Of a DNA stretch of 64,000 nt, positions 1,255 to 63,997 are shown in pieces. A program made the translations under genes and the position numbers. This DNA is from a virus. Position 1 is the first letter of the stretch. Every line of letters starts with the position of its first letter. The stretch covers positions 1 through 64,000 of IMG/VR virus record IMGVR_UViG_3300035158_000293; one strand, given 5' to 3'. The notes beneath the pieces are model-generated. The model worked only from the letters and a program-made list of their open reading frames with translations. It was not told the DNA's origin and searched no databases.

Positions 1255-4200
1255 TTAGCTCCTCTTGGAAGCGTTCAAAGCTTTTTGAATCGCCTCATGA
1301 ACCTCTGGAAACTTTTTCTTGAAAGCCTTCGGTGCCGCCGCGTACAAAGCCAACTGCCGCTTGTCTATATTTGCTTCCTGCAACCCAGTATAGCACGCCA
1401 GCGCGAGGTCGGCAACACACTCCGCGAGAGTAATTATGGCTATCGGCAATTCAACACCCGCACGCGCCTCTTTGTAGCTGTATGTATTGGCGTTGTAAAG
1501 GCGTATGTCGCCCTCAACAATTTCCCCCGGAACCACCGTGTTGGGAACGTCCAAGAACTCCACCACTACGTCTGACAAACCCAACCGCTCGGAGAAGGCA
1601 GGGATTTGCTCCTTGATCTTGCAGACAAAGGGGGTGTCCTCTGTTTTTGACGTTGTGTCAAAATCCACCCGCACCGCGTCATCGGTTTTTCCCGTCAACT
1701 CCATGTATTCTGCCGCAACCGGCAACAAAACCTCACCTAGCGCAACCTCGTGCGCCTGTAACGCTTCTACCAAGCTTTTGTGACTCCCCGGAACTCCAAC
1801 CACAATCCTGTAATTCACACCGTCGCGGCGCAATACTGCGGATGTGTGTGCTTTACCGCCCTCGAACACCAACGTGTTCACTCGTGTAAACACCGGTGAA
1901 CCCTTCAAATCCATGTCAGTAGTCTGCCCCGCAACCAACGGTACAGAAGCTTCGGGTTTGTCTGTGATGTGCTCCAAAAGTGCTTGGACACGCTGGCACG
2001 CCAACGGCTCCAACGTGGTTAAGGCAGTCATGTGTTCTTCGATACTCTCCGTCAAGTACTCCTGTGCGTGCTCGGGCAAGACTACGGACGCAAGCGCCTC
2101 CAAATCCTCCTCGGACACATCCACAAGCCCAAAGAGATCAGAGTACACACGCTGTCGAATTTGTTCTTCGGTTTCCCCTTCTGTCAGGTTTTTGGCAATG
2201 TCTGCATCCAGACGCGGTGTTGCCTGTCCTGTGTTGGAAAACTTCCGACGCATTTTGAGCACTTGGTCTGCCGCGTAGTCGCTAAACCGAGCAGGGCCAT
2301 TGAAGCTGTTCCACTCCTCCTGCAAAAGCTCACGTTCATGTGCAAGTAACGCCTTTACACCAAGCGCTTTGGCCGCATCCTCACAAAAAGCATCGAAACC
2401 CTCGGAAAGCCAACGCATGAACACCGGGGATTTCATCTTGGTAGCCTCGGTCAGCGCGGCACGGTGCCTAACATTGTTCTGCAAAAACGCCGTTAGGCAC
2501 CTCTCCCGTACCTGCCGCGTCGCTTCTCGTTCCTGTTTCCTCACGGTAAATCGCGACCTTGCCTGTACACCACGTACAAAACGTGTCCACGCTGTGTGTA
2601 GTGGGGCTTCGTCTTCTGTAAGCACCTCGCACCGATTGGGGTGTACAGTCTTCACGTCAGCTACAAATTGCTGGAACCCTTGTTTGCTATCTTCGGGCGC
2701 GTTCGTATCGAGATGCTGCGCCCACCTGTTGCGGAAGGTGAAAGGGTGCTTTTCTGCGTAATCCAGCAAGCCTTCCACTACGGCATTCAATGGTATTGAG
2801 CACCCCTTCGTCGTGTGCAACCAATCAAGGTAACGCCCATATGCCCGCTCAAACTCGACGACGCTCTCTGCAAACGCGGTGCGCAAAGCACTTCGCAGGT
2901 TGCTTGGCAGGTCTTCATGTCGCTTGAATCCTTTCAAATAAGGCTTCAACTCGGGGACGTAGACCTCTATATGGGCATCGCGGCTCAAAGCGCGAGGGTG
3001 GAACAATACACTTTCACCAAAACAAGCATCATCGGAATAGAACACCAGTTTCAAACTACCAACCGACCCTCGAGCACTTTCCAATCTGCACATATTGAGT
3101 GGGTTTTTGAGCATGATGCCCCGGCGACGATACTTGCGATCTTTGTATAACTCAAAATCATCCACCGTGAGTTCTGACAAACGCCTCGACATGCTCTCAT
3201 GGACGGCTTCCGCTTCCCCACAATTGTCCCGCGCGATTATGTGACGTGTTATCTCGGTTGAAGGTAAGGCGTTTGATGTTGAAAGTGCTTCGTCGAGTAT
3301 TCGCTCTTCTTCGACTACGGACTTGTCCAGAGGGGATGTAACAAACAAGTCAACCAAAGAGCCCTCAGTCTCTTGAAGTCTCTTATGCGCCTGCGCCTTT
3401 GCTTTGGCCAACCATGCTTGTCCTTTTTTGTTCTTAATCGGCGCGTCCATAATTCGACGAGCGATGCGACTAACGGCGGGTGACAGAACGCTCTTCCATT
3501 GATGGGGCGTCAAGTCCTTTTCGTTGTCGATCACAAAGAAGTTTTTCTTCCCGAAAAGCTGTTTGTATTTATCTAAATTGCGATGGGCTCCGCGCCATGC
3601 GTCGTCAATATACGACGGAGGAACATCGCGGCCCCCGGCTTCCGCACGTTTTTTGTTGCGTTCGAGGGCCTTTTCCAGACTCGTAGTAACAAACACCATA
3701 TAGACGTCGTAACCGTTGGCCCGCAACCGCTGAACAGGCTTGAAAATTCGGTCGAAAGCCCACCCTGTGCTGTCAACAATAACCCCTCGACGCTGCTGGG
3801 CGTAGTACCGCAATTCCTTTTTCTTTAGATCACGGGCACGAGTAAACAAGTTGTAATGCCAACCAGCTTCCCCAAAAGGAATACCAGATTCTCGAAGGAA
3901 CTTTTCGAGGTGGCGATCTTGACTGATGACTTTGAACCCCGTACCAGCGAACATTTCCTCGCCTACAGCACTTTTACCAGAACCGCCAGCACCGGCCAAG
4001 AAAATAGCTTTGAGTTGTTGGGGGTCTCTGTAACCCTCTGTCAACCCTAAAGCCTCGGTGAGTGGACGCCCTAAAACCTTATCGAGGCTTTCATCCACAT
4101 CACTCGGGTCCACCAAAACCAAGCCGTCCATAAGGTCATCAGGCGTGTAAGGGTAGTCGCAGGTGTACAATGCTTCCACAATTGTACGTTTGCGGTGCCC

Positions 4201-4560
4201 AACGTCTTCACAGTAAGCAACCGCGGCTTTCACGACATCCAAACCATACACAGCCGCGAACTTCGTGAGGGCAGCATCATACTCGTCTTCATCAAGCGGG
4301 GGCGGTGGATCGTTGTCTTCTATCCAATTAGCCCGCAGATACAAAGCCTCACACAAACGCTTTGTCTCAACGGAAACTTCCACACGTTCCCGGTCTGCTG
4401 TAGTCAGGTTGCGTAAACGAAAAGACTCCCCGGTGGGAGTATGTACCGCGAACCACTTGCCGGATTCCGAATAAACGGGTAAAAACGCTCCGACAGGATC
4501 GGCGGTCGTGCTATCTTCAAGCACGACGTGACGATAACTGTAAGGATCGTAGACTTTCAC
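1255..4560 (-). CDS. Large protein with zeta-toxin-like P-loop kinase domain (1101 aa)
   Basis: A P-loop kinase of the zeta-toxin/polynucleotide-kinase type occupies roughly residues 185-355. It has the Walker A motif AGAGGSGKS, a downstream SQDRHLEKFLRESG segment, VIVDSTGWAF as a strand with acidic and hydroxyl residues, and VFVTTSLEKALERNKKR as a lid-like helix. Zeta toxins phosphorylate UDP-N-acetylglucosamine, but the substrate here is unknown. Just before the kinase come PLTE/ALGLTE/GYRD (slashes mark potential cut points), and further L-x-E-[AGS] motifs recur (LTEATK, LTEGET, LTESIEE). The remaining 750 residues are helical and not recognised. The start is GTG at 4560, overlapping the stop of the preceding gene by two bases, with a weak ribosome site. 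One copy of the 15-bp palindrome (1647-1661) lies in the C-terminal coding part, reading FDTTS. I infer a virion-associated protein. Confidence 0.7.
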   Translation of the reverse strand: MKVYDPYSYRHVVLEDSTTADPVGAFLPVYSESGKWFAVHTPTGESFRLRNLTTADRERVEVSVETKRLCEALYLRANWIEDNDPPPPLDEDEYDAALTKFAAVYGLDVVKAAVAYCEDVGHRKRTIVEALYTCDYPYTPDDLMDGLVLVDPSDVDESLDKVLGRPLTEALGLTEGYRDPQQLKAIFLAGAGGSGKSAVGEEMFAGTGFKVISQDRHLEKFLRESGIPFGEAGWHYNLFTRARDLKKKELRYYAQQRRGVIVDSTGWAFDRIFKPVQRLRANGYDVYMVFVTTSLEKALERNKKRAEAGGRDVPPSYIDDAWRGAHRNLDKYKQLFGKKNFFVIDNEKDLTPHQWKSVLSPAVSRIARRIMDAPIKNKKGQAWLAKAKAQAHKRLQETEGSLVDLFVTSPLDKSVVEEERILDEALSTSNALPSTEITRHIIARDNCGEAEAVHESMSRRLSELTVDDFELYKDRKYRRRGIMLKNPLNMCRLESARGSVGSLKLVFYSDDACFGESVLFHPRALSRDAHIEVYVPELKPYLKGFKRHEDLPSNLRSALRTAFAESVVEFERAYGRYLDWLHTTKGCSIPLNAVVEGLLDYAEKHPFTFRNRWAQHLDTNAPEDSKQGFQQFVADVKTVHPNRCEVLTEDEAPLHTAWTRFVRGVQARSRFTVRKQEREATRQVRERCLTAFLQNNVRHRAALTEATKMKSPVFMRWLSEGFDAFCEDAAKALGVKALLAHERELLQEEWNSFNGPARFSDYAADQVLKMRRKFSNTGQATPRLDADIAKNLTEGETEEQIRQRVYSDLFGLVDVSEEDLEALASVVLPEHAQEYLTESIEEHMTALTTLEPLACQRVQALLEHITDKPEASVPLVAGQTTDMDLKGSPVFTRVNTLVFEGGKAHTSAVLRRDGVNYRIVVGVPGSHKSLVEALQAHEVALGEVLLPVAAEYMELTGKTDDAVRVDFDTTSKTEDTPFVCKIKEQIPAFSERLGLSDVVVEFLDVPNTVVPGEIVEGDIRLYNANTYSYKEARAGVELPIAIITLAECVADLALACYTGLQEANIDKRQLALYAAAPKAFKKKFPEVHEAIQKALNASKRS
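1647..1661. repeat. 15-bp palindrome copy 1
   Basis: TTGACGTTGTGTCAA inside the 1101-aa gene, encoding FDTTS on the minus strand. It is one base from the TTGACATTGTGTCAA consensus. Confidence 0.85.
3272..3288. repeat. 17-base dispersed repeat copy A
   Basis: TTTGATGTTGAAAGTGC in the 1101-aa gene (minus-strand ALSTSN). Two other copies are in unrelated genes. Confidence 0.7.
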
Positions 4561-5072: not shown

Positions 5073-6023
5073 TTAACCGTCTTCTTCGTCCTTGGGACGG
5101 CTCTCTCCAAGGCTTTCGAGAATCTGACCGGCGAGTTTCGGGCCGGACGACGGGCTGTAATCGACGGAAGCCGCGAGGTTCTTCTTCTTGCCTTTCTTGG
5201 GCGATTTTTTCTTGCCTTTCTTCTTGCCCTTCTTCTTGCCTTTTGTGGCCTTGGCTTTCTTCTTGGTGGCTTTCTTAGCCTTGGCCTTGCCTTTGCCTTT
5301 CTTGCCTTTCTTGCCTTTCTTCCACGACTGGTGCTGCTTCTTGAGTTGCGCGGCGTGCTTCTGGACGTACTTTTTGTACATCTTAATCATGGTGGGGTTG
5401 CCACCCTGCTTGTAGAAGCTTGTCCGCGTGTAGTCACCACCCTTATAGCCGGTTCCGGGCTCTGTCTTTTCGATGAAGCCCTTGAACATCATAGCACCGA
5501 GCATGGCGTTGACCAGTTCAGCCCCTTTAGCGCGGGACTTGTGAATCTTCTTGAAGTCACCCTTCTTCCACTCGAAAACGCCATCGTCCTCTTCGTCGTC
5601 TTCGTCTTCACTCAGGAGGCTTGTAATAGCTGCAATGCGAGCCTTGTCCTGAAGCGAGTCATCGGGCATGATGTTCTCGACGTAGTAGCCGAACATGTCC
5701 ACGAGGTCGTCCTGATCGACATGCTCCCACACGTCTGTTCCTGCAAGGAGTCTGCGGACGTGTGTTTCTTCGTCCTCGTAGTCGTCCTCGTCGAGTTCTG
5801 CCTCGTCGATGAATTCAACTTCGTCCTCTTCGTCGATCCTGAAAGCGACGGTCTGGATGGCTTCCTCGAGGTCTTCATCCTCGAACAGATCGGAAAAGTC
5901 TACAAAGTCCAAGAACCCTTCGATGACTTCACCCTCAAAAGTAAGGGTGCCGTCTTCGTTGAACAGGATGCGTTCGACGTCCCCATCGAAGCTGCCCCGG
6001 TCATTTGTCAGTATGATAGGCAT
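5073..6023 (-). CDS. Bipartite acidic/lysine-rich histone-H1-like protein (316 aa)
   Basis: The first 100 residues are strongly acidic (many Glu/Asp, e.g. DEAELDEDDYEDEE). A middle part (about 155-225) looks folded and contains FKKIHKSRAKGAELVNAMLG and TRTSFYKQGG. A tail of about 60 residues (roughly 235-297) is almost pure Lys/Gly/Ala with repeated KKGKK and a KKSPKKGKK element, like the DNA-binding tail of histone H1 or bacterial H1-like proteins. A DNA-condensing or head-core role is likely, with the acidic half acting as a mimic or counter-charge. The start at 6023 has the strong site GAGGAGGCTAAA. The gene is bounded by its own promoter upstream and a terminator downstream, so it is probably expressed as a single unit. 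The C-terminus ends in a short acidic segment. Confidence 0.65.
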   Translation of the reverse strand: MPIILTNDRGSFDGDVERILFNEDGTLTFEGEVIEGFLDFVDFSDLFEDEDLEEAIQTVAFRIDEEDEVEFIDEAELDEDDYEDEETHVRRLLAGTDVWEHVDQDDLVDMFGYYVENIMPDDSLQDKARIAAITSLLSEDEDDEEDDGVFEWKKGDFKKIHKSRAKGAELVNAMLGAMMFKGFIEKTEPGTGYKGGDYTRTSFYKQGGNPTMIKMYKKYVQKHAAQLKKQHQSWKKGKKGKKGKGKAKAKKATKKKAKATKGKKKGKKKGKKKSPKKGKKKNLAASVDYSPSSGPKLAGQILESLGESRPKDEEDG

Positions 6024-6132: not shown

Positions 6133-6147
6133 TTGACGTTGTGTCAA
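6133..6147. repeat. 15-bp palindrome copy 2
   Basis: TTGACGTTGTGTCAA spans the stop codon of the 1127-aa gene, next to the promoter region of the lysine-rich gene. Confidence 0.85.
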
Positions 6148-9100
6148 AACTGCTCGGCGATGTCTTGCGGAACCGAGAGAATGAGCTTACCGCCGGAGTA
6201 CCGCACAGGTGTATCATCCGGCAACCTCAAAAACTCGGCCCTCTGCATCACCTCTTGCGCCTTTGATCGGTCAAATTCAATCTCGACCAAACCGTCGGCG
6301 TCATCGTCGTCCTCGGACTCTGAAAGACCCACACCAATGAGCGCGGCGTCTTCCTCGGTCAGAGTTACTACCATATCACCAGATTCCGTGAACGTGACGT
6401 CTGCCTCTGAAGATACGCCGCGTTCATCGGCGTAGTTCGTAAACTTGGCAATGTCGGCTTTCGGAATCGTTATCCTGATTTCGTCTACTTCTTCTTCCAC
6501 GGACTCAGCAAACATGTCTTCAGCGTCGTCAGCCATTTCTTCTGCCGCAGCCTCGATTTCACGTTTGGGAGCCCCTTTGAATTCTTGTGTTAAAAGGTCA
6601 ACGTAAGCGCGTTCAAGCCTTCTACCACCACCGAACCGCTTATAGAGACGAACAGCTTCCAGATAGATAGGTTCGATATTCACTACCTGAAGCTGAATCT
6701 CGTCCGCGTCCATATCTTTTGGGTTGCCGAAGACTTCGTTGATGATCTCATCACCGTTTGTATGCTGGCTCCGCGCTTCGTCGGTTTGACGTTGTCTGAT
6801 CGCTTTCTGCACCTCTTTCGGGAGCCGCTTCACGCTGACCTTTTTCCCAAGGTGCTTACCAAGGTGAACGTGCTTGCCCACATCGCCTACAAACTGGTTG
6901 AAGCCTTGAGGACTGAATGGCCGATTACTCATACCATACGCCTCGGTCCCGATGATAACAGTATAACGGTCAAACGCATCCTCACCAGCGTCGTACACAA
7001 CGACCTTCTGCGCTTCATCCACGGACTCGCCGGTCATGTATTGACGCAAGCGCTTCCGAATACGTTGCTGTATCTTTTGCGGCAACCTATTCATGGGGAC
7101 TTTCTTCCACTTTGGATTTATTTGCAAATCCCAACTAGCGGGTCCGATTTCGCCTGCGTACATATCGACGCCGTACCCGATGTCGAAGACCGTTTTGCCA
7201 ATAACAACAATGTACTGGTCCTCATACCGACCGGAATCGTACACGGTTATCTTTGGCTTCTTAGCTTCATCCACCGTTTCCGCCATCCCCTCGTACTTCT
7301 TCATGATCCGCTTGGACGCCTGTGTAGCCCATTTCTTGTTCTTGTCGATCCTGCCCTTGATCAACTCTGAGGAAACCCACGCGAAATCTTTTGGGCGCAT
7401 CTTCACCTTGTAGGCAAACGTGAGCAACTTGTTCAAGCCTTTGAACACTTCCTGATCTTGACCCTTGAGGTCATAATTGTCACGCAACTCATAGAACATC
7501 GCCCGTGTGTTCGGTGTGGTTCCGAAGTCACCGTCGGGTTTGTAGTGCTTCATTATGGGATTGCTGGTCACACTATCCATGTGTGCCGTGAACTGTTTCT
7601 TTTCGGCCTCGTACACCGCTTCCTCCTTTGACCGCATCATGTTGATGACGATCTGAATGGCGTCCTCGGTATCTTTCGCGCCCTTGTTGATCGCGTTGGT
7701 AATCATGGAGTCGATGATGTCCTCGTCAGGCTCGTCGAAGATGTCCTCGGCGGCATCCATAGCGGCCTGTTTGACCGCTTCTCGGTCGATGTCCGCTTCG
7801 TAGAGCGATTCATTCATCTCTTGCACGAACTCTTTCACCGCTTCCTTGTAGAGGTCAACTATAAGCTGTGGAGCTTTCTTGACGTTCTTGACGTGAATTT
7901 CCTCGTCCGCCCATTCCTCCTCTTCCTCGTCCATGACGGTAACTCGGAGCTTCTTGTCGTCGTAGATAGCCCGAAGCTCGATGGTGAATTCCTCGTTGTT
8001 CGCTTTGGGTTCCTTACGGGTGAAGACCCAAGTGTAAGAGTCGTAGTCGGAGTCGGTTTTGTACTGAAAACCTGCACGCCGAGTTTCATCGACGAAGGTG
8101 TTTTCAATCATGTACTTGAACTGCTTGTGAGGCCGACGCGCTTCCTGATCCGCGTAATACTCGTACCAAGAGCCCCATGTCGTGAGGTAAATCTTGCCTG
8201 TTTCCCCATCGTACAGAAGCGTGGGCTTGTACGTGTCGCCCATGTTGATGTAGTAGGCCGGGTACTCCGCGGTGAAGTCATCTCCGCGGTCTTCGTCTGG
8301 TTGAAGGTACTCCACACCAAAGCCGTCTACGAGATCGTTGATTTGTTTCAGAGCATCCTCTCCACGACCACTTTTAAGGATGTTCTTGACCTCCTTCGCA
8401 GTATCCGTGTCCACTTTGAAAGCTTTGGCAAGGTCGCGGATAGCCGGGCGAGCATCACCGATGGAAAGCTTGCGAGCTTCGTCGAGAGCTTCACCGATCA
8501 TCATAGCACCACACTCGGGACATTCGGTTTCATTGCAGGGTGTGCCTCTTTCGTGACGCATCTCATGCCCACAAGCAGGGCAGACGCACATTTCAGCGCC
8601 ACCATCACCCTGATAAGGACCACCTTGACCCATTCCATCCCCTCGACCCTCGTCAACCTCTACCAGTTGACGCAGGCCCCATATTTTGCCTTCGTCGTCG
8701 AAGCGATTTTCGTTGATCTCTTCAAGCATTTCTCGGGTCTTGCCATACACCGGCTCCACACCCTCGGCTATCAGGATGTAGTTATAACCCTTGACAACCA
8801 TACGGTTGGCGACGCGAACTTCGGACTCCGTGAGCCTCATTGGTTGTGCCTCCGTTTCCTTTGTTTCCGACCGGCCCATAGTACCCAAACTGAGGTATAG
8901 CCCGGTTTCTTTTTCAATCCAAGGTTTTAGCTGGTCAGCATAAAGACCTTCTGCCTCGGCCTTGGTGGTACGACTACCTTTTCGGGTCGCACGAACCAAC
9001 TCGACATCATACAGGTCTTTGCCTCTGTCGTAATGTATGACAAGGTAATTCGCGCTGGTCTTATTGCGCCCAATGCGAATGTTGACTGTCTTGTTCTTTT

Positions 9101-9527
9101 CGGAATAGCTTACTTGCTTGCTACCCATCATGTAAAGCGCCTTGTTACCACCTATTTGCTGAAGGACTGTTTTCGCCCAAGGCGGTACCGCTTCTTCCAA
9201 ATTCTCTCTTACTGTTTTCTTGAGGTGTTTGACATGGCGATTGATCTGTGACTGCTTACACTCGAAACGACCACCAACACGATACCCATTCGTGCCTATG
9301 TAGTTATCAAGAGGAGCACGGTACAGATCACCGTCTGGCCCTTGGAAATACTCGAACTTGCCAAGGAACATCTTGTGACCTTTACTCTTCTCTTCGCCCT
9401 CCCCTATGTCCGGGCAACCCGAATCCCACGATCCGGGTCCGACATCTGCGGGTCGGCGTATAATCTCTACTTTGGCCTTTGTAAATCCCGGAACAGGGTT
9501 GCACTTCTTCTTCCGTTTTTTCGGCAT
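6144..9527 (-). CDS. Long modular virion-associated protein with zinc ribbon and duplicated domain (1127 aa)
   Basis: The start is set at ATG 9527 (MPKKRKKKC), with TTAGGAG nine bases upstream; the longer frame to 9623 has no support and would overlap the previous gene. A four-Cys zinc ribbon (CPACGHEM, later ECPECGAMM) lies at about residues 312-342. Residues about 753-915 hold two tandem copies of an 80-residue domain, each opening with V-D-E-A-[KQ]-K, a strand set ending in VVIG or VIIG, and a basic helix containing RLP. Further x-D-E-A or L-Y-E-A motifs occur near ALDEAR, SLYEAD and QTDEAR, matching the form of T4-like prohead-protease sites. The function of the domains is unknown; I infer a capsid-packaged polyprotein. 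The stop codon lies in a copy of the 15-bp palindrome. It follows the 758-aa gene, which shares the ESxDEA linkers. Confidence 0.65.
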   Translation of the reverse strand: MPKKRKKKCNPVPGFTKAKVEIIRRPADVGPGSWDSGCPDIGEGEEKSKGHKMFLGKFEYFQGPDGDLYRAPLDNYIGTNGYRVGGRFECKQSQINRHVKHLKKTVRENLEEAVPPWAKTVLQQIGGNKALYMMGSKQVSYSEKNKTVNIRIGRNKTSANYLVIHYDRGKDLYDVELVRATRKGSRTTKAEAEGLYADQLKPWIEKETGLYLSLGTMGRSETKETEAQPMRLTESEVRVANRMVVKGYNYILIAEGVEPVYGKTREMLEEINENRFDDEGKIWGLRQLVEVDEGRGDGMGQGGPYQGDGGAEMCVCPACGHEMRHERGTPCNETECPECGAMMIGEALDEARKLSIGDARPAIRDLAKAFKVDTDTAKEVKNILKSGRGEDALKQINDLVDGFGVEYLQPDEDRGDDFTAEYPAYYINMGDTYKPTLLYDGETGKIYLTTWGSWYEYYADQEARRPHKQFKYMIENTFVDETRRAGFQYKTDSDYDSYTWVFTRKEPKANNEEFTIELRAIYDDKKLRVTVMDEEEEEWADEEIHVKNVKKAPQLIVDLYKEAVKEFVQEMNESLYEADIDREAVKQAAMDAAEDIFDEPDEDIIDSMITNAINKGAKDTEDAIQIVINMMRSKEEAVYEAEKKQFTAHMDSVTSNPIMKHYKPDGDFGTTPNTRAMFYELRDNYDLKGQDQEVFKGLNKLLTFAYKVKMRPKDFAWVSSELIKGRIDKNKKWATQASKRIMKKYEGMAETVDEAKKPKITVYDSGRYEDQYIVVIGKTVFDIGYGVDMYAGEIGPASWDLQINPKWKKVPMNRLPQKIQQRIRKRLRQYMTGESVDEAQKVVVYDAGEDAFDRYTVIIGTEAYGMSNRPFSPQGFNQFVGDVGKHVHLGKHLGKKVSVKRLPKEVQKAIRQRQTDEARSQHTNGDEIINEVFGNPKDMDADEIQLQVVNIEPIYLEAVRLYKRFGGGRRLERAYVDLLTQEFKGAPKREIEAAAEEMADDAEDMFAESVEEEVDEIRITIPKADIAKFTNYADERGVSSEADVTFTESGDMVVTLTEEDAALIGVGLSESEDDDDADGLVEIEFDRSKAQEVMQRAEFLRLPDDTPVRYSGGKLILSVPQDIAEQF

Positions 9528-11864: not shown

Positions 11865-12239
11865 CTAGTCGAGACAACCCATGTGAGCGAACTGTCCCGA
11901 CGGCAAAACTTTTAGGTATCCGGGCATCTCGATCAGACACCCGCAAACGCAACACCTAATATAACGTGGTTCATGGTGTTGTCCAATAGTTTGCCCCGGT
12001 TTTTGACGCGAAGTCAAACGTCGGTACAGTTTGATGTGATATGCGAACCACCCGAAAACGGCAGGGTTGTTCTTATAACGTGTGTGTAAATCGCTAAACT
12101 CCTCAACACAAGCCGGACACACAGAAGCGTAGTTTTCACCCGTCTTAATTTTCGGAAGCGGCGGAACGGCAACTACTGTGTCACCGCAAATAGCACATTG
12201 AAACACGTAACACACTTGACTCTCGAGCAATGGCATCAT
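11865..12239 (-). CDS. Small zinc-binding protein with two Cys-pair units (124 aa)
   Basis: There are two treble-clef or ribbon-like units. One is near the N-terminus (FQCAICGDTVV, later SVCPACVEEF) and one near the C-terminus (IRCCVCGCLIE, later a Gly-Cys near the end). Family and partner are not recognised. Starts at 12239 or 12236 (tandem ATGATG) overlap the stop of the TPR/zinc protein, so the two are translationally coupled. A variant palindrome (TTGACGCGAAGTCAA, 12003-12017) lies inside the coding region, read in the L-T-S-R frame. Confidence 0.6.
   Translation of the reverse strand: MMPLLESQVCYVFQCAICGDTVVAVPPLPKIKTGENYASVCPACVEEFSDLHTRYKNNPAVFGWFAYHIKLYRRLTSRQKPGQTIGQHHEPRYIRCCVCGCLIEMPGYLKVLPSGQFAHMGCLD
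12003..12017. repeat. 15-bp palindrome copy 3 (variant)
   Basis: TTGACGCGAAGTCAA keeps the outer arms with a changed centre. It encodes LTSRQ in the 124-aa zinc gene, a different frame from copy 1. Confidence 0.6.
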
Positions 12240-14581: not shown

Positions 14582-14846
14582 CTGCGTCGCCCCTGTTTGA
14601 TCTGTCGGCAATTCTATCGGCACACGCCTGTAACCATGTGGAATACTGCCGCTCTTTCGGTCGGTAGTAATTCGCCTGAACCCGAAGCCAGCGCACCAGC
14701 CCATCATCAGCCCCTCGCCCTGTGGTTATAATTTCCAGCCACCGCTTGGCCCGTTCCGCCGCCTCTGCAAGCTCAAAGCGGCGGGCATCCACACAATAAA
14801 GCCTGAGCACGTTGATCAAACGGTCGCGGAAGTCCTCATGTGACAT
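14559..14846 (-). CDS. Small helical hypothetical protein (95 aa)
   Basis: The start is taken at ATG 14846 (MSHEDFRDRL), two bases after the stop of the P-loop ATPase gene. The protein is almost all helix, rich in Arg and Ala (FELAEAAERAKRWLEII, WLQACADRIADR), with no cysteine cluster. It overlaps the start of the TPR/zinc gene by about 23 bases, consistent with coupled translation. The family is unknown. Its place in the cluster ATPase - helical - TPR suggests a regulatory or assembly complex, but no direct evidence shows this. Confidence 0.55.
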   Translation of the reverse strand: MSHEDFRDRLINVLRLYCVDARRFELAEAAERAKRWLEIITTGRGADDGLVRWLRVQANYYRPKERQYSTWLQACADRIADRSNRGDADVKERND

Positions 14847-55000: not shown

Positions 55001-58000
55001 ATCAATCTGCACGGAGTAAACCGACGCCGTCTGCCCATCGCCCACGGCAGCGGACGCACGAATAACGGAGCCAACGACCTGCTCGCCTCGACGTATCGTC
55101 ACACCGCTTTCGTCTCTGCGAAGTGTAACGCGCTTACCGTCTCCGTAGTGAACATCCCGAGTGATTATCGGCGCACGCCACTTGGATTCCCCAAACGTGC
55201 CGCGCGAAGTCTTCAAGGCTACTTCCGGGATGTCATACTTGTGAAGCGTGCTGTTGCCTCTCGGCATCTGCCCCACATGCGCCGCGGCGCTGGTCATCGC
55301 TTGTGCAAACGTGGGGAAGGTGCTCCACAAACGATATGCGTTCACATCGTTGCCCTCATTGACATACACACGGAACGGCCCGTCGGTGGAACCGCTCTCG
55401 GTAGTGAACATGACCGACCACCCGTTTACGAGGTCGGACCCGACGTACTGCTCCTGCGGCTCCAAAAATTCGACGATGCTCTCTTGGAACGGGTTCTTAT
55501 TCCGCGGGTAGTAAATGTCCGTATCCGGGTCGTAATAGCAACCCTCGCGGGGGTCGTAATAAACCACCTTGCCCGTGGGCGTCTGGAAAGGCCCCTCGAG
55601 TCCTTGGCGCTTCTTGTACCGTGTGCGGTCAATTGTGCCAAGGCGTTTCCAGCCCTCGCCCAAGAGCCCAACGCCGTCTGTCCTATCCCCACCGTGAATC
55701 AGGTTGTACCGCGCAAGACTGTCGAGATAAACGCGCCCGTTCAAAAGCATGAACGTCGGCTGTCCCGCGTCTCCCCGGTCAACGTACACCAAGTCATCGA
55801 GACGCTCGACGGGGTGCTTGACGCGCTCCCCGATGTCCCGCAGAGCCTGCTCGGTAGTCACCTTGCCTTTTTGAACCTGCGCCGCGATAACAGCGGCCAG
55901 CTCGGGTGAGATATTTGGGAAGGCGTTGTGTACGTCCACGGCATTCGTGGCGCTTTTAAGCATGTTGTCACCCGCCTCCGTAGTCTCCTGCGCCAAACCC
56001 GCGTTCTGGCCTTGGTCGAGTGCCGCAAACCCGCGGTCTGTTGCCGGTAACGTCACCGACGTGTCTGCGGTTTTGCCTTCTTCTGTTTCCTCTGGCGGCA
56101 CAAACGGTATTTGTGCGCCGAACAGCGGATGCAGGTCAGCCGGATCGGGAGCAAACGGGGCGCTTCCGGCACCCGCCTCAATGGTAGTCATGGGCGTGGA
56201 AGCCGCGTCCTGTAAGGGGTTCAGCAGGGCGTGGCGGTAGTCGGCTCTGTGCGCCAAAATACGCCCACGTTCAACAATTCCACCCCTGAAGAACGCTAAA
56301 CTCCCTTCCACCCGCGTGAATTTTGGAAAATGTGTACCCGCCACACTCTCACACACCTCCCGTTTACGCAACACGGGCATACCGCTCACAGTCTTACCCA
56401 CAACCTCATACGCACCTGCGGCTATCCCGTACCTTCCCCGACCCATTACGCTTTCTTTCAAGCCTTCCGTACCTTTTCCCTTTCTCCTTCCTTCCTCCTC
56501 CATTGACATTGTGTCAACATCGAAACCCTGCACGCCATTTTCCGTCTCGCTGACCTCTTCCGGTAGTGTCTGTCCGCCCTCTTCTCCCTCGACCTTCACT
56601 CCCGCCTTTTTAGCAACCGTCATGGTCCACGGCGTCCAGCTCACGTACATCTCCTTCGTCGTCGAACTTATGGACACCGAACCGTAATCTCCCGACACGT
56701 TGCAGGACAACCTTCTGCTTCCACTCACGGGTTCCCAATCTGGATGTGGCGTACCTTTCACCTTCGGGTCGTAGTGCATTGCGTTTTGCTCTTTCATCCA
56801 CCGGTCAATCCTCTTTACCTCCCTGCCTCTCACGTCCAGCCTCTTCAACTCCGCGTCTGCCCAGTCACTCGGGTCGCTGTTGGGATTCGCGAGTTCCTTC
56901 TCCACCCGCTTGATAGCATCCCGTATGTACGGCTGGAGTAACTTGGGTGCTTTACCCACGTTCTTCTTCGCTTCCGCTACGAGCTTCCTGTACTGCTCCC
57001 TTTGTTCCTCCTGCGTACCGGCTCCCTCTTCCAGCCTCAGAACCTTTCGTGCGAGTTTGCCCGTCTCTCCCTTTGCTTCATGCAGATTACCCATCCCGCT
57101 TTCCTCACTCTCTTTCGCGAGTGTCGGGTCCGCCGTAATGTGATCCTCGTTGTCATTCGTGAGCAACCCGAAGCCGAGTAGTCTTTCCCTTGCACCTTCC
57201 TCTTCCGGCTCTGCGGGTTCGGGGTTCGCTTGTTTCTGCACCTTCTGGCTCTCGGGGGTTTCGGTTCCCGCATCCCTCGTGTATTCCTCAAGAAACGCTT
57301 CAATCATGGCGTCGCACTCTTCCGGCAGGTCTTCGTACATCCCGTGTATTTCCTTGACCAGACTGTGTACCTCCTCGAACGTGTTCGGCACGTCGTAAGC
57401 TTTCCCTTTGAGCACTACGAGCGTACCCGCTTCCGTCTTCTTCACTCCCCACGTTCCGAAGCGGCTTGTGATCATACCCGCCTCAATCGTACCCTGATAC
57501 GTCTCTGCGATTTCCTCAAAGTACGGCTGTTGCTTCCTCCTATCCACGCAATCGAGGCACATCGTCCGTGCTTCCTCGTCCACCACGACGGGTTCATCTT
57601 CCGCAAGCACCGTGTTGCACGACGCACACCTCTCTATGTCGAGTGGAACGTAGTCCCATGTGATTTGCGCTTTTTGCCTTTGCTCTTCCAGCTTCAACTC
57701 ACCCACCGCACGGTCGAACGCTTGCCGGAACAAGTCTGTGAAATACTCCTCGTCCTCTATTTGCGGCATGTGCATCCACGCCGCTCTCGCAAGCTGTTTT
57801 GTGAGCGCCACACCCTCGTTGTTCCTTGCCGCGTAGTTCGTTGCTTCCCTTTGGAGCTTGGGGGACAGCTTCTCGGTTGTGTCCTTCCGATACAGCTTTG
57901 CTATTTCATCCCCGAAGCGTTTCTGTTTGCTCTCGGAAACTACTGTACTTTCGTTCGGTTCATTTATTGACATTGTGTCAAACTCCCTTCGGTGGGTTTG

Positions 58001-61000
58001 ATTGTGCTCGTTTTTACCCTCTGAGAACGCACATGCGCGTCCATGCGCGTTTTTCTTTCGTGGGTTGGTGCCTCGTGTCATGTCGATGTCGAAAATGCTT
58101 TCTCGCGCATCCTCGTTCGTTTTTCGTTTTTGGGTGGTTTGCGCCTCGATCTCCGTACCGAAAACGTGCTGTGTAAAGGCGGATTCACCTAAAACCTCGG
58201 CCTTTACACGCTCCACATTACGGAAGTTTGTCTTCTTGAGAACGTCTACCCCGCCATGTCCGAGGGCTTTTTCACACCCCGCGGCAATTGCTCGGGCATT
58301 GCCGTACACGGGAAGAACGTAGTCGTCGCGATCTTTACCGAAGATAACCGCCGCCCCGACAATCTTGTTTGCACCTCGGAATGTAATGGGCTCTGTCACT
58401 CTGACATTCGGGTACTGGCTCTGCAAGGCGGTTGTCGTTGGACGATTCAAAACAGGACCGAGCTTGTCCACAAGGGCCTCAAGCTCCTTCCTGATTTTCG
58501 GGTTGTGTTGGTCGGTACGTCCCGGCCCTTCGTAGTTACGAACCCACGCTTTGAGGAAGTCCTTTATCTCTTTCTCCGCGGTCCTCCTGATCTTGACAGG
58601 GTCCACGTTTTGTGACGCGGCCATGCGCTCTATGTACTTCGCCACAAAACCCTCAAACGTATCCCGCCTTTGTGCCAACGCTTTGTCACGTTCACCTTCG
58701 ATATACTCACGCTCCCAATCTGCAAGGTCCGGGTCTTGGTAGTTGTACCGGGCCTCGAACTCTTCGTCGGGTTCGGGGTCAAATTCCTTAACCGTGTACT
58801 TCGTAATCGCCATGCCTGCCGGTGCAGCCATTACTGCAACCGATCCGGGGTCGGGAAGCTGGTCTTCGTCGGTTTTTGCTGTGCGCGTTTCTATTTGCAC
58901 GGCGAAAAGCATAGGGTCTCCGCCGAATTTGTTTGTGGCGTCCCTCGCGGAACTCAATGCTGTGAGGAAGTTTTGTGTGAAGTAGTTACCATCAAGACTT
59001 GCGAGGGCTTGATTCTTCTGATCCCAAACTTTCTGCTTCTGATTGAGTTTGAAGCCTTGTTTTAGAATCGACCTCCCAAACTTGGTAGTGGTACCGTGGA
59101 AGTACAACGCCTTGGCTTCGGTTAGATTTGACGTTGTGTCAAAACCCTCCCAAAAGTCGTCATCGAACTCGATTTCGATCTCCATACCCGGAAGCTCAAT
59201 TTCAATCTCGTTGTCATCCTCGTCTTCGTCGCCGTCTTCTCCGTCGGGATTTGTACCCTCTGGACTCGTGTATTTCCCGGTCAACAGATAGCCGTCGGAC
59301 GATGGCATTGTCGATGAATCTCCCTTTACAATGGCGTCCTTTCCGGGATGCGTAGTTGTGATACTGTGCTCCGGGTGTTCGCCTGCGCAAGTCTCCTCCT
59401 CTTCGGCTGCTTCATCGGACTCCGTTACCGGTATCTTCGTTCGGGCCAACGCATCTGCAAACGTGGCAAACCTTGCCACCTCAACCTCGCCTTGCATCAC
59501 CACAAAAGGCTCGTCCCCGTACTCCTTTACGTCGATGCTGTACTCTGTCTGTTCCTTTTCTTTCTTAGTCTGGAACAGCCCTTTGTCGCGTTCTGAATCC
59601 TTGTCCGCAAAACGCTCGCGTTTTTGGTATGATCCTGTCCTTATGCTCCGCAATTTTGTACGAAGGTTCTGTAGCTTCTCCGCGAAGTCATCCAAAACAG
59701 AGTAAGTGTAATAGACAGTTTGTCCGGTTTTCCTGCCCGTCTCAACATTACGGCGTATGCTAGCCAAAGCCTCGCGAGCATACGCGCTGGTTTCAAAGGC
59801 CGTCACCACGTCATCTTCTTGGTCGTCGGAAACGAAGAACACCTTTACGGGACCATCCACGCCTGCGGGCATGATCGCTTTGTCATACTCGACACCAGCA
59901 ATCACGACCCCTGCGTCGAACACTTCGTAGTTGTCGAGGTCTTCGCCATATATGAACTCGTGTTTGCCGTAAACAGGGTAATACGGCAACGCTTCTTCTG
60001 TATCGTCGGCTTCTGTCACACTCTCGTTCATGCGGGCCTTGATCCAGCTCTTGAAGCGGCTGTTCTTATCCTTTGCGGACACGATCTCTATTGTGTAGTC
60101 GGACTCGAGCTTTTTGATCTCTTTGAGGAGGTCCGCCTTTTCATCCCAAGTATCTCCATCTAAAGCGTGTTTCATTCTCAAAATGTCGGGCCACTCTTCC
60201 GACGGTTTGTCTCGCCACTCCATGTAATTGGTTACGTCCTCAAGCTGACTGATCCCTATGAGCAATTCGGACCCTTTGGGAATCTTCAAATCCCGATCTT
60301 TTATAATCCACTCGCCCTCGTTCTTGTAAACCTGTCCAATGAGCTTCAATCCCTCTGTTATTTTGCGCTCAAGCTCTTTCATAGGGACTTCGTCCAAAGC
60401 ATCGGCGAAGCGCTTGTAAGTGTAGTCCTCCTCACGAAGCTTTGGAATGCCGACCTTCTTCAACCACTTTGCAATATCTCGCGGTCCTCGGATTTTCTTG
60501 GGCGGGTTTTTTCGGGCTACGTCCGCCAACTTGCTGTGGCCAGCTATGTGTCGATTTTCCATCACAAGTGTTTTGTATTTCGAATCACTCTTGAACGCCT
60601 CTATCATGTATTCGAACACGTTGCGGTAAACCTGTGTTAAACCTATCGGGGTCTTGCTCGCGTCAAACAAACGGTAGAGCGCGTCACAATTCTTGGCGGT
60701 GAGATACATGGGGTTATCGTACATAACGCGGCTAACGGCGTTCTCTTCAACAAACGCACGCCCCGGCATCTTCAACGCGGCTGACTTGTTGAACAAGTAT
60801 TGGATGTCCTCGGAGCTACTGACACCCGCAGCGCCTTCGAGCCGTCTCTTTTTCAATGACTCAAGGTGAGACGGCTTGTACACGTCGAACGACAGGTAGA
60901 AAAATTCCGGTATGTCCGCGTCGGTGTAAGACGCCTCGACCAATGGCCGACCTGCAAACGTGGCCGTGTGCTCGTTTGTATCACCGTTAGGTAAACCCTT

Positions 61001-62902
61001 CATGTTCGTCTCTCCCAATTTATTGGTGCCACTCTCCAAAAGACCACGCTCTTTCAGTTTGTTGTAAGCCTCGTCCCCCAGCTTGTTTGCGATACTGTAC
61101 GGCATGTTCTTGAACACGTCGTTAATTATGTAGCCGGGTTCGGCTGCACCCCGCGAACGTCGGAAGAATGGGAGAAGCTGATCCAGTATGCCGTCTACTG
61201 TGTGCCACTTATTACTGCTGGGTTTTTCTTTTTTGATCCGCTTGGCAAGCTCGGCAAGTGTGGCCTTGCGTACTTCCTGCGGCTCAAAGAACTGGTAGTC
61301 GAGAAGGCCCGTACCGGAACCCTCGCCGTACTCCTCTATGAACTCCTCACGAGTCATAGGTACAAACTGTCCGTAACGCTCACCTCTGACGTAAACCTTC
61401 GTGATCTGACGAGGTGACACCCGCCCAATGAACAACGCTTGAGGCTCCTGACCCTTGTCCAGTAGTCCGAACGAAACACTCGGTCGGAAAGACTTGGGGT
61501 ACGACTTCCTCCAAAGATCGTCCTCGCGTTCCTGTTCTGCCGGGTTTTGACTGAACAGGTCTTTACCCTGCACCGTGAACCGCAGGATAACGGGTCCGAA
61601 CTTTTCGGCTGTTTTGTAGTCCGGCGCGACAAACAACCCACGGTCAAGCCGCTTGCCTCCTGAATAGTGCGGGTAAAGACGGTGTGTTGGCTTGGTGGCG
61701 TCGACGCCTTTGCGGACAAACTCCAAGGCGGTTTTTTGGTCTGTGCCGTGGAACAGTTGGAGTTTGGTGTTGGGCCGTAGCCGTGCGATGCTTCCGCGCT
61801 TGCCTTCATGGAGAGCTTCGGATTCCTCCATCCGCTCCCGCGTTCCAACGCCCTCATTCACCAGCCGTAGTTCGCCATGAGGCACGTCAAACGGGTTGTC
61901 GTAACCTTTGTCAACCGTTCGGAACCAAACACGCCTGTCAGAGCCTTCGGCAAACCGTTTGATAGCCGCATCTGTCTTTGCCACGGCCACTACCTTGTCA
62001 CCTTCCCTGACGTTGTACAGGTATTTGCCACGGTGTGTCTGCGTAATAATGTAATCACCGGGTGCGGGTGACGACCACCCTTGTGTACTCTCAATTTTGA
62101 GGTTCCTCTGCGCAAGTTCCTTCATGTGTGCCTGCGTCAACTTTTTTCTGCGGGATCGGCGTTTGCGCGGTTTCATGCCGGGTCGCGCATGGCTCATAGG
62201 CACTACCTGCACGTCGGTGATACCGCTTTTCTTCAACCAATTCTTAACACGGGACACCATGTTCTGATCAAGCACCAGCACCTTGTCCAACCATTCAGGA
62301 CGAAACTTGAAATCCCCTCCCCGCAACCATTCGTCTTCTTCCGCGTACTGTTCCATGAAAGCGTCGAGCATCATACCGCGCTTGACGTCCCAAAAATCAC
62401 CGACGAGGTAGTCCTCATATTCTTCCTCTTCGAACGGCTCCCCATCTTCATCAAACACACCTCCCTGAGCAGCGGCGGACGCCAACTCGTCGGGGGTTTC
62501 AATAACCCCGCCCTCCGCGTCAAAAAACTCCTCATACGGGAAGGTATCCATAGCCATGCCGTATGCTTGCTCCGCAGCAACATCGGTCATTTCGGGAGAC
62601 TGTGCGAGGACGTATTCAACAGCCGTTGGGTTTTCGTCAAACCAGTCCTCGGTGTAGTGGACCTCTGTAAAGTGTGATTCGAGTGGTTTGCGATGGAACG
62701 CTAAAATCACATCGTGATGTGTCCCGAACATCCCACCTTCAAGCGGATAAGTCGAAAGGCTGACGAAAGCGGGTCCGCCCATGTATGATGCGTTGGCTTT
62801 CAACGTCCGGGATTTGAGGATGTCCCTGAGAGCTTTGTAGTGTGTGGTGTGAAAGAAGTGCTTGGTCTGCGCTTCGAACAGAGAAATTCCGCTGTTACCC
62901 AT
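52088..62902 (-). CDS. Giant polyprotein-like virion protein with three ART-like domains (3604 aa)
   Basis: The first ten residues end in SLFE followed by Ala, like the ten-residue capsid-targeting leader of T4 internal proteins. ART-like domains occur at about 12-120 (FFHTTHYKALRDIL, AFVSLST), 380-510 (LFHGTDQKTALEF, LFVAPDYKTAEKFG) and 1262-1370 (LYFHGTTTKFGRSIL, NYFTQNFLTALSSA). A zinc ribbon lies near 1755 (CASCNTVL, CLDCVDR). A GYPWV-like repeat is at about 2495. Two related 100-residue modules are near 2775 and 2940 (YKFPDQVTA and YKFKAPEQL). Modules with VWF...NPF[DN] lie near 330 and 3580. Motifs such as LTEAK, LYEAK, LHEAK, VTEAD and LVEAS sit at many joints. Four 15-bp palindromes cluster at linkers. 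An internal ATG at 57973 has AAGGGAG in front. Packaging and injection are inferred; enzymatic activity is not shown. Confidence 0.7.
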   Translation of the reverse strand: MGNSGISLFEAQTKHFFHTTHYKALRDILKSRTLKANASYMGGPAFVSLSTYPLEGGMFGTHHDVILAFHRKPLESHFTEVHYTEDWFDENPTAVEYVLAQSPEMTDVAAEQAYGMAMDTFPYEEFFDAEGGVIETPDELASAAAQGGVFDEDGEPFEEEEYEDYLVGDFWDVKRGMMLDAFMEQYAEEDEWLRGGDFKFRPEWLDKVLVLDQNMVSRVKNWLKKSGITDVQVVPMSHARPGMKPRKRRSRRKKLTQAHMKELAQRNLKIESTQGWSSPAPGDYIITQTHRGKYLYNVREGDKVVAVAKTDAAIKRFAEGSDRRVWFRTVDKGYDNPFDVPHGELRLVNEGVGTRERMEESEALHEGKRGSIARLRPNTKLQLFHGTDQKTALEFVRKGVDATKPTHRLYPHYSGGKRLDRGLFVAPDYKTAEKFGPVILRFTVQGKDLFSQNPAEQEREDDLWRKSYPKSFRPSVSFGLLDKGQEPQALFIGRVSPRQITKVYVRGERYGQFVPMTREEFIEEYGEGSGTGLLDYQFFEPQEVRKATLAELAKRIKKEKPSSNKWHTVDGILDQLLPFFRRSRGAAEPGYIINDVFKNMPYSIANKLGDEAYNKLKERGLLESGTNKLGETNMKGLPNGDTNEHTATFAGRPLVEASYTDADIPEFFYLSFDVYKPSHLESLKKRRLEGAAGVSSSEDIQYLFNKSAALKMPGRAFVEENAVSRVMYDNPMYLTAKNCDALYRLFDASKTPIGLTQVYRNVFEYMIEAFKSDSKYKTLVMENRHIAGHSKLADVARKNPPKKIRGPRDIAKWLKKVGIPKLREEDYTYKRFADALDEVPMKELERKITEGLKLIGQVYKNEGEWIIKDRDLKIPKGSELLIGISQLEDVTNYMEWRDKPSEEWPDILRMKHALDGDTWDEKADLLKEIKKLESDYTIEIVSAKDKNSRFKSWIKARMNESVTEADDTEEALPYYPVYGKHEFIYGEDLDNYEVFDAGVVIAGVEYDKAIMPAGVDGPVKVFFVSDDQEDDVVTAFETSAYAREALASIRRNVETGRKTGQTVYYTYSVLDDFAEKLQNLRTKLRSIRTGSYQKRERFADKDSERDKGLFQTKKEKEQTEYSIDVKEYGDEPFVVMQGEVEVARFATFADALARTKIPVTESDEAAEEEETCAGEHPEHSITTTHPGKDAIVKGDSSTMPSSDGYLLTGKYTSPEGTNPDGEDGDEDEDDNEIEIELPGMEIEIEFDDDFWEGFDTTSNLTEAKALYFHGTTTKFGRSILKQGFKLNQKQKVWDQKNQALASLDGNYFTQNFLTALSSARDATNKFGGDPMLFAVQIETRTAKTDEDQLPDPGSVAVMAAPAGMAITKYTVKEFDPEPDEEFEARYNYQDPDLADWEREYIEGERDKALAQRRDTFEGFVAKYIERMAASQNVDPVKIRRTAEKEIKDFLKAWVRNYEGPGRTDQHNPKIRKELEALVDKLGPVLNRPTTTALQSQYPNVRVTEPITFRGANKIVGAAVIFGKDRDDYVLPVYGNARAIAAGCEKALGHGGVDVLKKTNFRNVERVKAEVLGESAFTQHVFGTEIEAQTTQKRKTNEDARESIFDIDMTRGTNPRKKNAHGRACAFSEGKNEHNQTHRREFDTMSINEPNESTVVSESKQKRFGDEIAKLYRKDTTEKLSPKLQREATNYAARNNEGVALTKQLARAAWMHMPQIEDEEYFTDLFRQAFDRAVGELKLEEQRQKAQITWDYVPLDIERCASCNTVLAEDEPVVVDEEARTMCLDCVDRRKQQPYFEEIAETYQGTIEAGMITSRFGTWGVKKTEAGTLVVLKGKAYDVPNTFEEVHSLVKEIHGMYEDLPEECDAMIEAFLEEYTRDAGTETPESQKVQKQANPEPAEPEEEGARERLLGFGLLTNDNEDHITADPTLAKESEESGMGNLHEAKGETGKLARKVLRLEEGAGTQEEQREQYRKLVAEAKKNVGKAPKLLQPYIRDAIKRVEKELANPNSDPSDWADAELKRLDVRGREVKRIDRWMKEQNAMHYDPKVKGTPHPDWEPVSGSRRLSCNVSGDYGSVSISSTTKEMYVSWTPWTMTVAKKAGVKVEGEEGGQTLPEEVSETENGVQGFDVDTMSMEEEGRRKGKGTEGLKESVMGRGRYGIAAGAYEVVGKTVSGMPVLRKREVCESVAGTHFPKFTRVEGSLAFFRGGIVERGRILAHRADYRHALLNPLQDAASTPMTTIEAGAGSAPFAPDPADLHPLFGAQIPFVPPEETEEGKTADTSVTLPATDRGFAALDQGQNAGLAQETTEAGDNMLKSATNAVDVHNAFPNISPELAAVIAAQVQKGKVTTEQALRDIGERVKHPVERLDDLVYVDRGDAGQPTFMLLNGRVYLDSLARYNLIHGGDRTDGVGLLGEGWKRLGTIDRTRYKKRQGLEGPFQTPTGKVVYYDPREGCYYDPDTDIYYPRNKNPFQESIVEFLEPQEQYVGSDLVNGWSVMFTTESGSTDGPFRVYVNEGNDVNAYRLWSTFPTFAQAMTSAAAHVGQMPRGNSTLHKYDIPEVALKTSRGTFGESKWRAPIITRDVHYGDGKRVTLRRDESGVTIRRGEQVVGSVIRASAAVGDGQTASVYSVQIDSPDVDAVAVTQAVERVLPEFMEEVVRKQAAVSDLSVYPWQGGDAYKYPIGKGRNEPAVKQTDMTKLEKGEALVTLPRSRIAAKTEAVAPDANTIEVSLTVEDSAPDRYVYRTARVDGTRILRIKNDKAVVRITLENSREFTYKFPDQVTASAFAFNVAQGRDWTLDKLNALARNVNQQVTVGEAEDCDYTVQEILRIIDRIERGVSIDTTSKPDDSEVPTNTHTITEGNRCDIVEARKPIEIEWSKQPGRGVVDEFALYVDYDLPKTAPGKAAKPRYAGTKDTRGANVPRALFKNLTQNNRDMNPVYKFKAPEQLDTFVARVKTKARWTEDDLDALAKREGGLRITKLNRYLDSMIRGLKAESSDTMSNDLAEGRDIAAAKKLVKPGYVGTEWETAAGRDAKEPTVIRRVEAYDEDKGMVAISQSDRPAKFMELLPVDQLVGEIAFNRAQAEAAKAKAQTSKEKEEEQQKKQADYEDTDGFAEQFPPLRAGRVRKHLHTRINVPVGIGTNKRVPLKGRDLIRGLVRAGWRVKRGRGGRRIVKGASFFVEKDLSKTLLDYAEYLYPKRKQIKPVKGLPKHFTEDIHPAVFGIGGVVMVPLAEGSPVNEVTEYRNLNVAARYVPGLAEGDTEIWYMKTGVSRDLGMGFDWAKDHDALPDPKNLRKTHILLGKVKERDPEKLFRAMQARLWSPHGEARKLLKQKGIDHTSMSIGDVIVTGNKVLLVDRGGFVDLKKVQESDAVARLHPEQVHHGVLAEERRGILQEGSKRSFPAGTPKQKTAAESILKKLERKLQMEADTLASFYEPEEEPHPLYNPDKATLDKVVKLTLDVLYSVHAGEIVRVAKLRGFDDPNAFFRYFGRWLAGRRDPWDFPVKGMEFVNALKSLSECAFGPYGIESPGPDDLLVLQSFPRKNLYEAKIGDIIIARFESDAALREFVEGATTRVWFQAAEGSNPFNAPEGLTTLIKEADAE
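53896..53910. repeat. 15-bp palindrome copy 13
   Basis: TTGACATTGTGTCAC in the 3604-aa gene, encoding SDTMSN at a module joint before LAEG. Confidence 0.8.
54367..54381. repeat. 15-bp palindrome copy 14
   Basis: TTGACGTTGTGTCAA in the 3604-aa gene, encoding IDTTSK at a linker before ITEG. Confidence 0.85.
56513..56527. repeat. 15-bp palindrome copy 15
   Basis: TTGACATTGTGTCAA in the 3604-aa gene, encoding VDTMSM in a linker with a potential in-frame ATG. Confidence 0.85.
57967..57981. repeat. 15-bp palindrome copy 16
   Basis: TTGACATTGTGTCAA in the 3604-aa gene, containing in-frame ATG 57973 with AAGGGAG upstream. Confidence 0.85.
59128..59142. repeat. 15-bp palindrome copy 17
   Basis: TTGACGTTGTGTCAA in the 3604-aa gene, encoding FDTTSN directly before NLTEAK and the third ART-like domain. 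Confidence 0.85.
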
Positions 62903-63007: not shown

Positions 63008-63997
63008 TTATGCGAGCATGCCGTAGCCGTCACCAACCTCCAAATCACCTTCAGCCGAAACCATCATGGTTCCGCATTTGGGGCACTCCATGCCCCGCGC
63101 GGTTGACTGTTTCGGTCCTGTGGAGTAACCACAGCCCGGACACCGCATGAGCCCCACAGACATCGCAAAACCACCGCTGGAGAAACCACCCGTGCTCGCA
63201 GTTGTAGTGACTTCCTTGAGCCTTTTTGCGGTCTTGCCTGTGAAGCCGCTCTCTTGATACTTCTTGTACGCCAACTTGTCGAACTTGCCTTTCTTGGCTT
63301 CCCTCTCAAACTGATCCCGCATCATCTCTGCGGCTCTCTGACGTATCTGTGGAGTAACGTCGAGATAAGGAATGCCTACAACCTTGGAGGCACCTTTGTA
63401 CGCCGCATTGGACAGAGTGAGAAACTTCTTCACCGCCTGCTCGCGGTCGTAGTCACCTTTGGCGACGTGGTTGATCATCGACCTGCAAGCTTGCTGCCAT
63501 GCGGGTTCCGCGGCCATTTGAATCGTTTTGACAATGAAGTCCGCCATCTTCTTACCATACGGCGTTTCTTCATCGCCTTCTCCTTCATCGAGGTGTTCCA
63601 CGCTCTCCATGAACATGCGGACCTTGCGCTGTATCTCCGCCAACCGTGCTGTTTTGTCTAATTTGAAATTGTCGTCCTCTTCATCCTCGTCGGGGTCGTA
63701 CTTAGGGCGCGTAGCCTTGATAACAGCCATTAAGTCAACCGCCTCGTTCAACGCTTCGGGAAACAACTCACGACGTCGTGCTTTGACCCGTTCTATCATA
63801 GGCTCCCATGAACCATATCCGGGATCAAGACGCTCACCATACTGACGCAACGTGTCGGGTGTCATGTACCTTTCTTGTCCGCGCTCTTCAAAGCGTAGTA
63901 ACACGCGGCAATCACTCCCGTCGCTCTCGTTTGGGCCGTTTACAAACAACAGACCGACACTCTCCAAATGCACCGACGATTCCCCGATGATTTGCAT
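63008..63997 (-). CDS. Zinc-ribbon virion-associated protein, possibly cut at window edge (329 aa visible)
   Basis: The frame opens at ATG 63997 only 3 bases from the window edge, so the true start may lie outside. The last 60 residues hold a four-Cys zinc ribbon (CPGCGYSTG and ECPKCGTMM), close in form to the ribbon in the 1127-aa gene. ALNEAV near residue 83 and HLDEGE near 138 match the protease-site form. The middle is helical (FIVKTIQMAAEPAWQQACRSM, VTPQIRQRAAEMMRDQF). It lies 105 bases upstream of the 3604-aa giant and may be a coexpressed virion protein. Confidence 0.6.
   Translation of the reverse strand: MQIIGESSVHLESVGLLFVNGPNESDGSDCRVLLRFEERGQERYMTPDTLRQYGERLDPGYGSWEPMIERVKARRRELFPEALNEAVDLMAVIKATRPKYDPDEDEEDDNFKLDKTARLAEIQRKVRMFMESVEHLDEGEGDEETPYGKKMADFIVKTIQMAAEPAWQQACRSMINHVAKGDYDREQAVKKFLTLSNAAYKGASKVVGIPYLDVTPQIRQRAAEMMRDQFEREAKKGKFDKLAYKKYQESGFTGKTAKRLKEVTTTASTGGFSSGGFAMSVGLMRCPGCGYSTGPKQSTARGMECPKCGTMMVSAEGDLEVGDGYGMLA

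Follow-up and report, generated by a model that had tools for sequence, protein, structure and literature searches.

Giant proteins of a virus fragment, apparently T4-related, are rich in prohead-protease-type motifs and may be polyvalent effectors cut during head maturation

The stretch of DNA analysed here (the window) comprises bases 1-64000 of the 123,798-base IMG/VR virus fragment IMGVR_UViG_3300035158_000293 (genome G0 in our comparisons). On its minus strand it encodes several giant proteins in which the motif [LIV]xE[AGS], similar to the sites cut by gp21, the prohead protease of phage T4, recurs at the joints between modules. The fragment appears to come from a large bacterial virus related to T4. 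The portal gene (record 98798-100609) encodes a distant relative of gp20, with 24-30% identity to annotated portals of T4-like and jumbo phages, and is followed by a minor head protein gene; portal alignment found 26 relatives in IMG/VR. Genes of the fragment are read from the minus strand. Gene calls were made with a simple script, and those of relative G13 probably include spurious open reading frames (ORFs). The features of the window are listed below; ART stands for ADP-ribosyltransferase, aa for amino acids, and a slash marks the predicted cut within a candidate site.

1255..4560, minus strand: putative polyprotein of 1101 aa, 18 candidate sites against 4.1 expected, p 0.0005
3388..4035, minus strand: zeta-toxin/PNK-like kinase module, from aa 176 of the 1101-aa protein (PF06414, 6.2e-15, aa 177-347)
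5073..6023, minus strand: probable prohead scaffold/core protein, 316 aa, 5 sites against 1.1 expected
6144..9527, minus strand: putative polyprotein of 1127 aa, 12 candidate sites, p 0.001, with a domain of ~80 aa duplicated behind E754 and E838
9566..11842, minus strand: putative polyprotein of 758 aa with joints PESIDE/GR, DESIDE/AR, SELDE/AR and RSIFE/AV, p 0.001
19071..20621, minus strand: 516-aa protein with a YHAT ART-like start and a C-terminal Tad6-like anti-Thoeris domain (aa 421-506, PF25188, 4.5e-27)
24624..35198, minus strand: 3524-aa protein with sites in aa 331-1093 and 2560-3310, repeated GYPWVV-type modules and a HEFTH zinc-peptidase-like motif near the N-terminus
52088..62902, minus strand: putative polyprotein of 3604 aa, 29 candidate sites against 12.5 expected, p 0.0005
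58298..59116, minus strand: probable ADP-ribosyltransferase-like module (aa 1263-1535 of the 3604-aa protein), directly after NLTE/A (E1262)
62873..62902, minus strand: ten-residue leader MGNSGISLFE of the 3604-aa protein, ending at candidate site E10/A11 and resembling the leaders of T4 internal proteins
63008..64000 (record 63008-67837), minus strand: C-terminal part of a clade-conserved 1609-aa protein, 13 candidate sites, p 0.007

An original prediction, made from the letters of the window, had proposed that prohead-protease sites recur in five giants, and every motif that it quoted was found: LTEAK at E1262 of the 3604-aa protein, LYEAK at E3549, LHEAK at E1942, VTEAD at E964, SIDEAR/LDEAR in the 758- and 1127-aa proteins and LREA in the 3524-aa protein. 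In the six giants counted (1101, 1127, 758, 3524, 3604 and 1609 aa) the motif occurs 102 times against 42 expected from shuffled sequences (z 9.8); in 19 giants from relatives, which were picked partly by motif count, it occurs 237 times where 87 are expected. The enrichment is thus 2.4-2.7x. In the proteome outside the giants the background is 1.4x, because of which no individual site can be trusted. Taken one by one, four of the five giants are strongly enriched (1101, 1127, 758 and 3604 aa, p 0.0005-0.001), while the 3524-aa protein is mildly so (21 v 11.8, p 0.008) and has a site-free middle stretch. When the P1 position was changed to D, K or R, or the spacing shifted by one or two residues, the control motifs gave 0.8-1.5x, the highest control being Q at P1 (2.0x). 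The extended motif [ED][ST][LIV]xE[AGS] reached 8x in the window giants and 16x in those of relatives, with E-S-[LIV]-D-E/[AGS] as the consensus. Also, L, I or V occupies P3 in 35% of E[AGS] dipeptides when 19% is expected, so richness in EA is not by itself a sufficient explanation.

Since the giants of relatives were chosen partly by motif, a scan of all proteins from ten genomes that are 150 aa or longer (n=559, permutation floor p 0.0005) constitutes a fairer test. Thirteen proteins reached the floor, being nine giants, three prohead proteases and one scaffold; a fourth protease (p 0.0015) and the scaffold of the window itself (p 0.002) came close to it. The large protein pair G7_055/G15_017 was not significantly enriched. 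The same test run on T4 flagged gp22 (p <0.001), gp21 (p 0.007) and gp23 (p 0.025), and left gp17, gp18, gp20 and gp24 unflagged. Over all proteins, the excess of sites at the N-terminus (88 v 50 expected) was only slightly higher than in inner windows (72 v 52 and 76 v 50). The motif is real, and its role as a predicted cut site, together with its placement, is well supported by sequence comparison. Chance, or a helix-forming composition devoid of function, is already disfavoured and strikes us as very improbable: the 1.4x background and the poor conservation of sites between orthologous giants would suit it, but not the 2.4-2.7x of the giants, the 8-16x of the extended motif, most controls being close to 1, nor a kinase joint that is fixed in 80 of 80 loci, as described next.

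Regarding placement, the kinase Pfam domain of the 1101-aa protein begins at aa 177, two residues past the site LTE/G (E175). The joint recurs in relatives, as VSE/G at the start of G7_059 and as VDE/G near the end of G3_068, and in cultured phages, where the kinase stands alone in HTVC008M (MIPFILKE/G) and Melnitz (MKTFAELQE/G) and follows an ART-like domain in Atu_ph07 (VTE/G); all three phages encode an S77 protease. The site [LIVF]xE/G precedes the kinase in all of another 80 IMG/VR loci (79 scored by script and one by eye), and the distance from site to Walker A motif is 14 residues in the 79 measured by script. Altogether, at least six contexts of the module were found, all with an identically placed joint: it stands alone behind a short T4-style leader (for example MKSFEQILSE/G) or is fused into giants. 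Kinase-bearing giant ORFs of other viruses were not clearly rich in sites (3-6 sites, about as many as for the shifted control).

Sites had also been predicted directly before two further domains. This holds for the duplicated domain of the 1127-aa protein (E754 and E838; score 85 v a maximum of 42 in shuffles), as it does for the kinase; the module at E1262 likewise sits directly behind a site, its assignment as ART being weak. In the 758-aa protein, aa 330-426 align with an inner stretch of the relative G7_111 and a site ends both. Across the giants, high-scoring segment pairs (HSPs) start within 4 aa of a site in 15 cases v 8.2 expected (p 0.011) and end so in 15 v 8.0 (p 0.014), a modest effect that lost significance when the limit was widened to 8 or 12 aa. 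These comparisons support that the sites coincide with module boundaries and that the modules exist on their own as well, behind T4-style leaders.

The ART-like module can be aligned over its whole length with phage proteins that stand alone and have leaders ending in [LI]xE/[AS], such as MKFSEWILRE/A. It has weak PARP/KptA matches, with H...Y...E invariants in A4, and the ADP-ribosyltransferase call stays weak because the AlphaFold models failed. Tad6, the kinase and the weak ART matches are the sole recognisable modules of the window, each in a different protein; the Tad6-bearing 516-aa protein is weakly enriched in sites (p 0.036). In relatives, several effector domains share one polypeptide, as are zeta kinase with Tad6 (G7_059) and a SAM-lyase-like domain with kinase (G3_068), and NUDIX (G10_041) and AAA modules are also present. 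Most modules of the giants have no known relative. The probable ART and the Tad6 domain would fit an effector role. The predicted ten-residue leader ending in SLFE before Ala is present as MGNSGISLFE/A in the 3604-aa protein, and the other window giants have no short leader of this type. A close search of IMG/VR with the whole 3604-aa protein gave no relatives.

The head genes bear the same motif. It is found in the scaffold, the protease itself, the capsid protein and the minor head protein, the capsid and protease cases coming from relatives only; the giants' sites match the specificity of T4 gp21, as had been proposed. The minor head protein carries [LIV]xE/GK in 9 of 9 genomes, and in the capsid proteins of relatives [LIV][ND]E/[AVT] is found close to where the mature region begins, at a position that does not exactly match that of T4. 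A prohead protease, which was expected elsewhere in the genome, is missing from this record and present in portal-relatives: Peptidase_S77, the T4-type family, was recognised in G3, G7, G13 and G15, which span the head region and have the capsid gene alongside the protease, plus the remote contig G20. The His and Ser segments of T4, GELNHP and GVSSRG, align with G-H-[LV]-E-H-P and GVSSRG in the four portal-relatives, and Gp23 was recognised in G3. Homologues of the 316-aa scaffold (G3_007, G7_062, G10_042, G13_050, G15_012) have protease and capsid genes downstream where the contig reaches. A motif-rich giant lies immediately upstream of the scaffold gene in G0, G3, G10 and G13. From the gene order in G3, G7, G13 and G15, where protease and capsid genes lie farther downstream of the scaffold, those of this virus would lie past the left end of the record. 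A candidate for the major capsid protein within the record, G0_073 (328 aa, record 78223-79209, L001:14223-15209), was rejected as only the N-terminal part of the capsid protein aligns, sharing LQE/A with that of the clade, and no Pfam match was obtained.

Two other explanations of the giants were weighed. Like T4 gp22 or the inner-body proteins of giant phages, the giants may belong to the head interior or core and be cut for capsid maturation into pieces that are structural or discarded rather than delivered. Scaffold and protease show dense sites of the same kind, the giants adjoin the scaffold gene, and in T4 the fragments into which core proteins are cut mostly leave the head (PMC9026906); but several of the modules can be recognised as enzymes or anti-defence domains, and homologues stand alone with short leaders like a capsid targeting sequence, so we regard this explanation as unlikely. 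Less likely still is that they are ordinary polyvalent effectors, packaged whole or self-processed by zincin-like peptidases, with LxE[AGS] joints reflecting linker composition. Polyvalent proteins that combine disparate domains, and for which self-processing by zincins has been proposed, are known (PMC5512222), and the 3524-aa protein and the relatives G10_041 and G3_074 contain HExxH-like motifs. Against it, the enrichment needs E at P1 and the exact P3 spacing, and the motif of the giants is that of capsid, scaffold and protease sites.

We favour, with a probability of roughly 0.7, that the giants are polyvalent effectors cut by a T4-type prohead protease and delivered to the next host. They would be modular precursors in which [LIV]xE/[AGS] joints separate the modules; together with the scaffold they would enter the prohead core, where a gp21-type protease would cut the joints and release small separate enzymes, among them the zeta-toxin/PNK-like kinase, probable ADP-ribosyltransferases and others, and in relatives also Tad6-like, SAM-lyase-like, NUDIX and AAA modules. 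The freed enzymes would stay inside the capsid until they pass, together with the DNA, into the next host. Packaging, cutting, delivery and function are all inferred here from sequence.

Several results weigh against this interpretation. The record has no recognisable prohead protease and no full capsid gene, the giants of relatives were selected as stated and the HSP fit is modest. No site falls between aa 1093 and 2560 of the 3524-aa protein, a stretch (window 27521-31920) of repeated GYPWVV-type modules that would stay one large piece if the sites are cut sites. Site E224 lies inside the kinase domain, and in other viruses four giant ORFs have ART modules with no site directly before them. 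AlphaFold models of the ART module (predicted local distance difference test score, pLDDT, 46) and of 252 residues after the leader (pLDDT 41) were too poor for a fold search. When orthologous giants were compared, site residues were kept no better than control residues, a test that is uninformative because the orthologue pairs of relatives are too divergent.

For the clade as a whole, we lean slightly towards a true polyprotein strategy in these T4-like large phages, where dozens of early anti-defence and takeover enzymes would be synthesised as giant chains that move into the prohead core, where the capsid-maturation protease would cut them to single effectors, with modules swappable between joints. 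If so, hardly more than a single targeting step would suffice to load many different effectors into the capsid, and it would account for how polyvalent proteins are taken apart. Furthermore, joints that mark module borders may help to find new anti-defence domains among giant phage proteins that lack annotation.

Other features of the record were also noted. A 329-aa ORF (63008-63997) is the end of the 1609-aa gene that extends to record position 67837; the whole protein had no match among named phages. Past this gene lie virus-encoded type I-C CRISPR genes for Cas7c, Cas8c and Cas5c (record 67969-71945, L001:3969-7945, where L001:3969 is record 67969), adjoined by a nine-copy repeat array (L001:4922-5404). 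The terminase large subunit (record 100610-103489, L002:16610-19489) has an intein-like insert that breaks the Walker A motif, and the minor head protein of G5 has a similar insert, both judged by eye. The 823-aa protein encoded at window positions 12236-14707 starts with a repeat-rich segment and contains many zinc-ribbon-like CxxC pairs. Long fibre-like proteins occur twice, at window 20901-24266 and at record 85319-87259; the two are related and resemble each other at their ends. The first, an ORF of 1121-1127 aa (20901-24284), has one candidate site, fewer than expected by chance. Rfam and tRNA scans of the window gave no matches.

The closest known kind are the polyvalent proteins of phages and conjugative elements, described in the available parts of PMC5512222 and PMC9503650 as giant, virion-associated, multidomain and predicted to be injected. 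As the giants here, they join unrelated enzymes, ART domains included; those parts propose processing by built-in zincin-like peptidases and none by a prohead protease, whereas the giants have T4-type prohead-protease sites at many joints. Reports of polyvalent proteins processed by a prohead protease were not found in the open-access literature searched, nor were any of polyvalent effectors combined with many internal sites of this kind. The Dar proteins of phage P1 are very large anti-restriction proteins packed into the head through an N-terminal signal, and an array of inter-domain prohead-protease sites is not described for them in the accessible portion of PMC9024508. In phiKZ and SPN3US, a gp21-like protease cuts many head proteins after Glu, ejected ones included (PMC10052503); the SPN3US motif is AxE, however, and apart from the protease all identified cuts give N-terminal propeptides and are not inter-domain (PMC10052503). 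Agrobacterium phage Atu_ph07 has a single protein with an ART-like start after MKWNDLNE/A and the kinase after VTE/G; its sites are few, and its genome is devoid of a giant with significant enrichment. By analogy, the precedent for delivery would be T4 Alt and the internal proteins IPI-III, which carry a capsid targeting sequence and are cut by gp21 at L/I-x-E (PMC9026906). The giants share with them the L/I-x-E rule and, in the 3604-aa protein, a leader of about ten residues, and stand-alone homologues of modules have such leaders; T4 also packages an ART in its head, of which the weakly assigned ART-like module may be a counterpart. The T4 proteins are single units cut at their ends, whereas the giants are concatenated modules of up to 3604 aa with internal sites.
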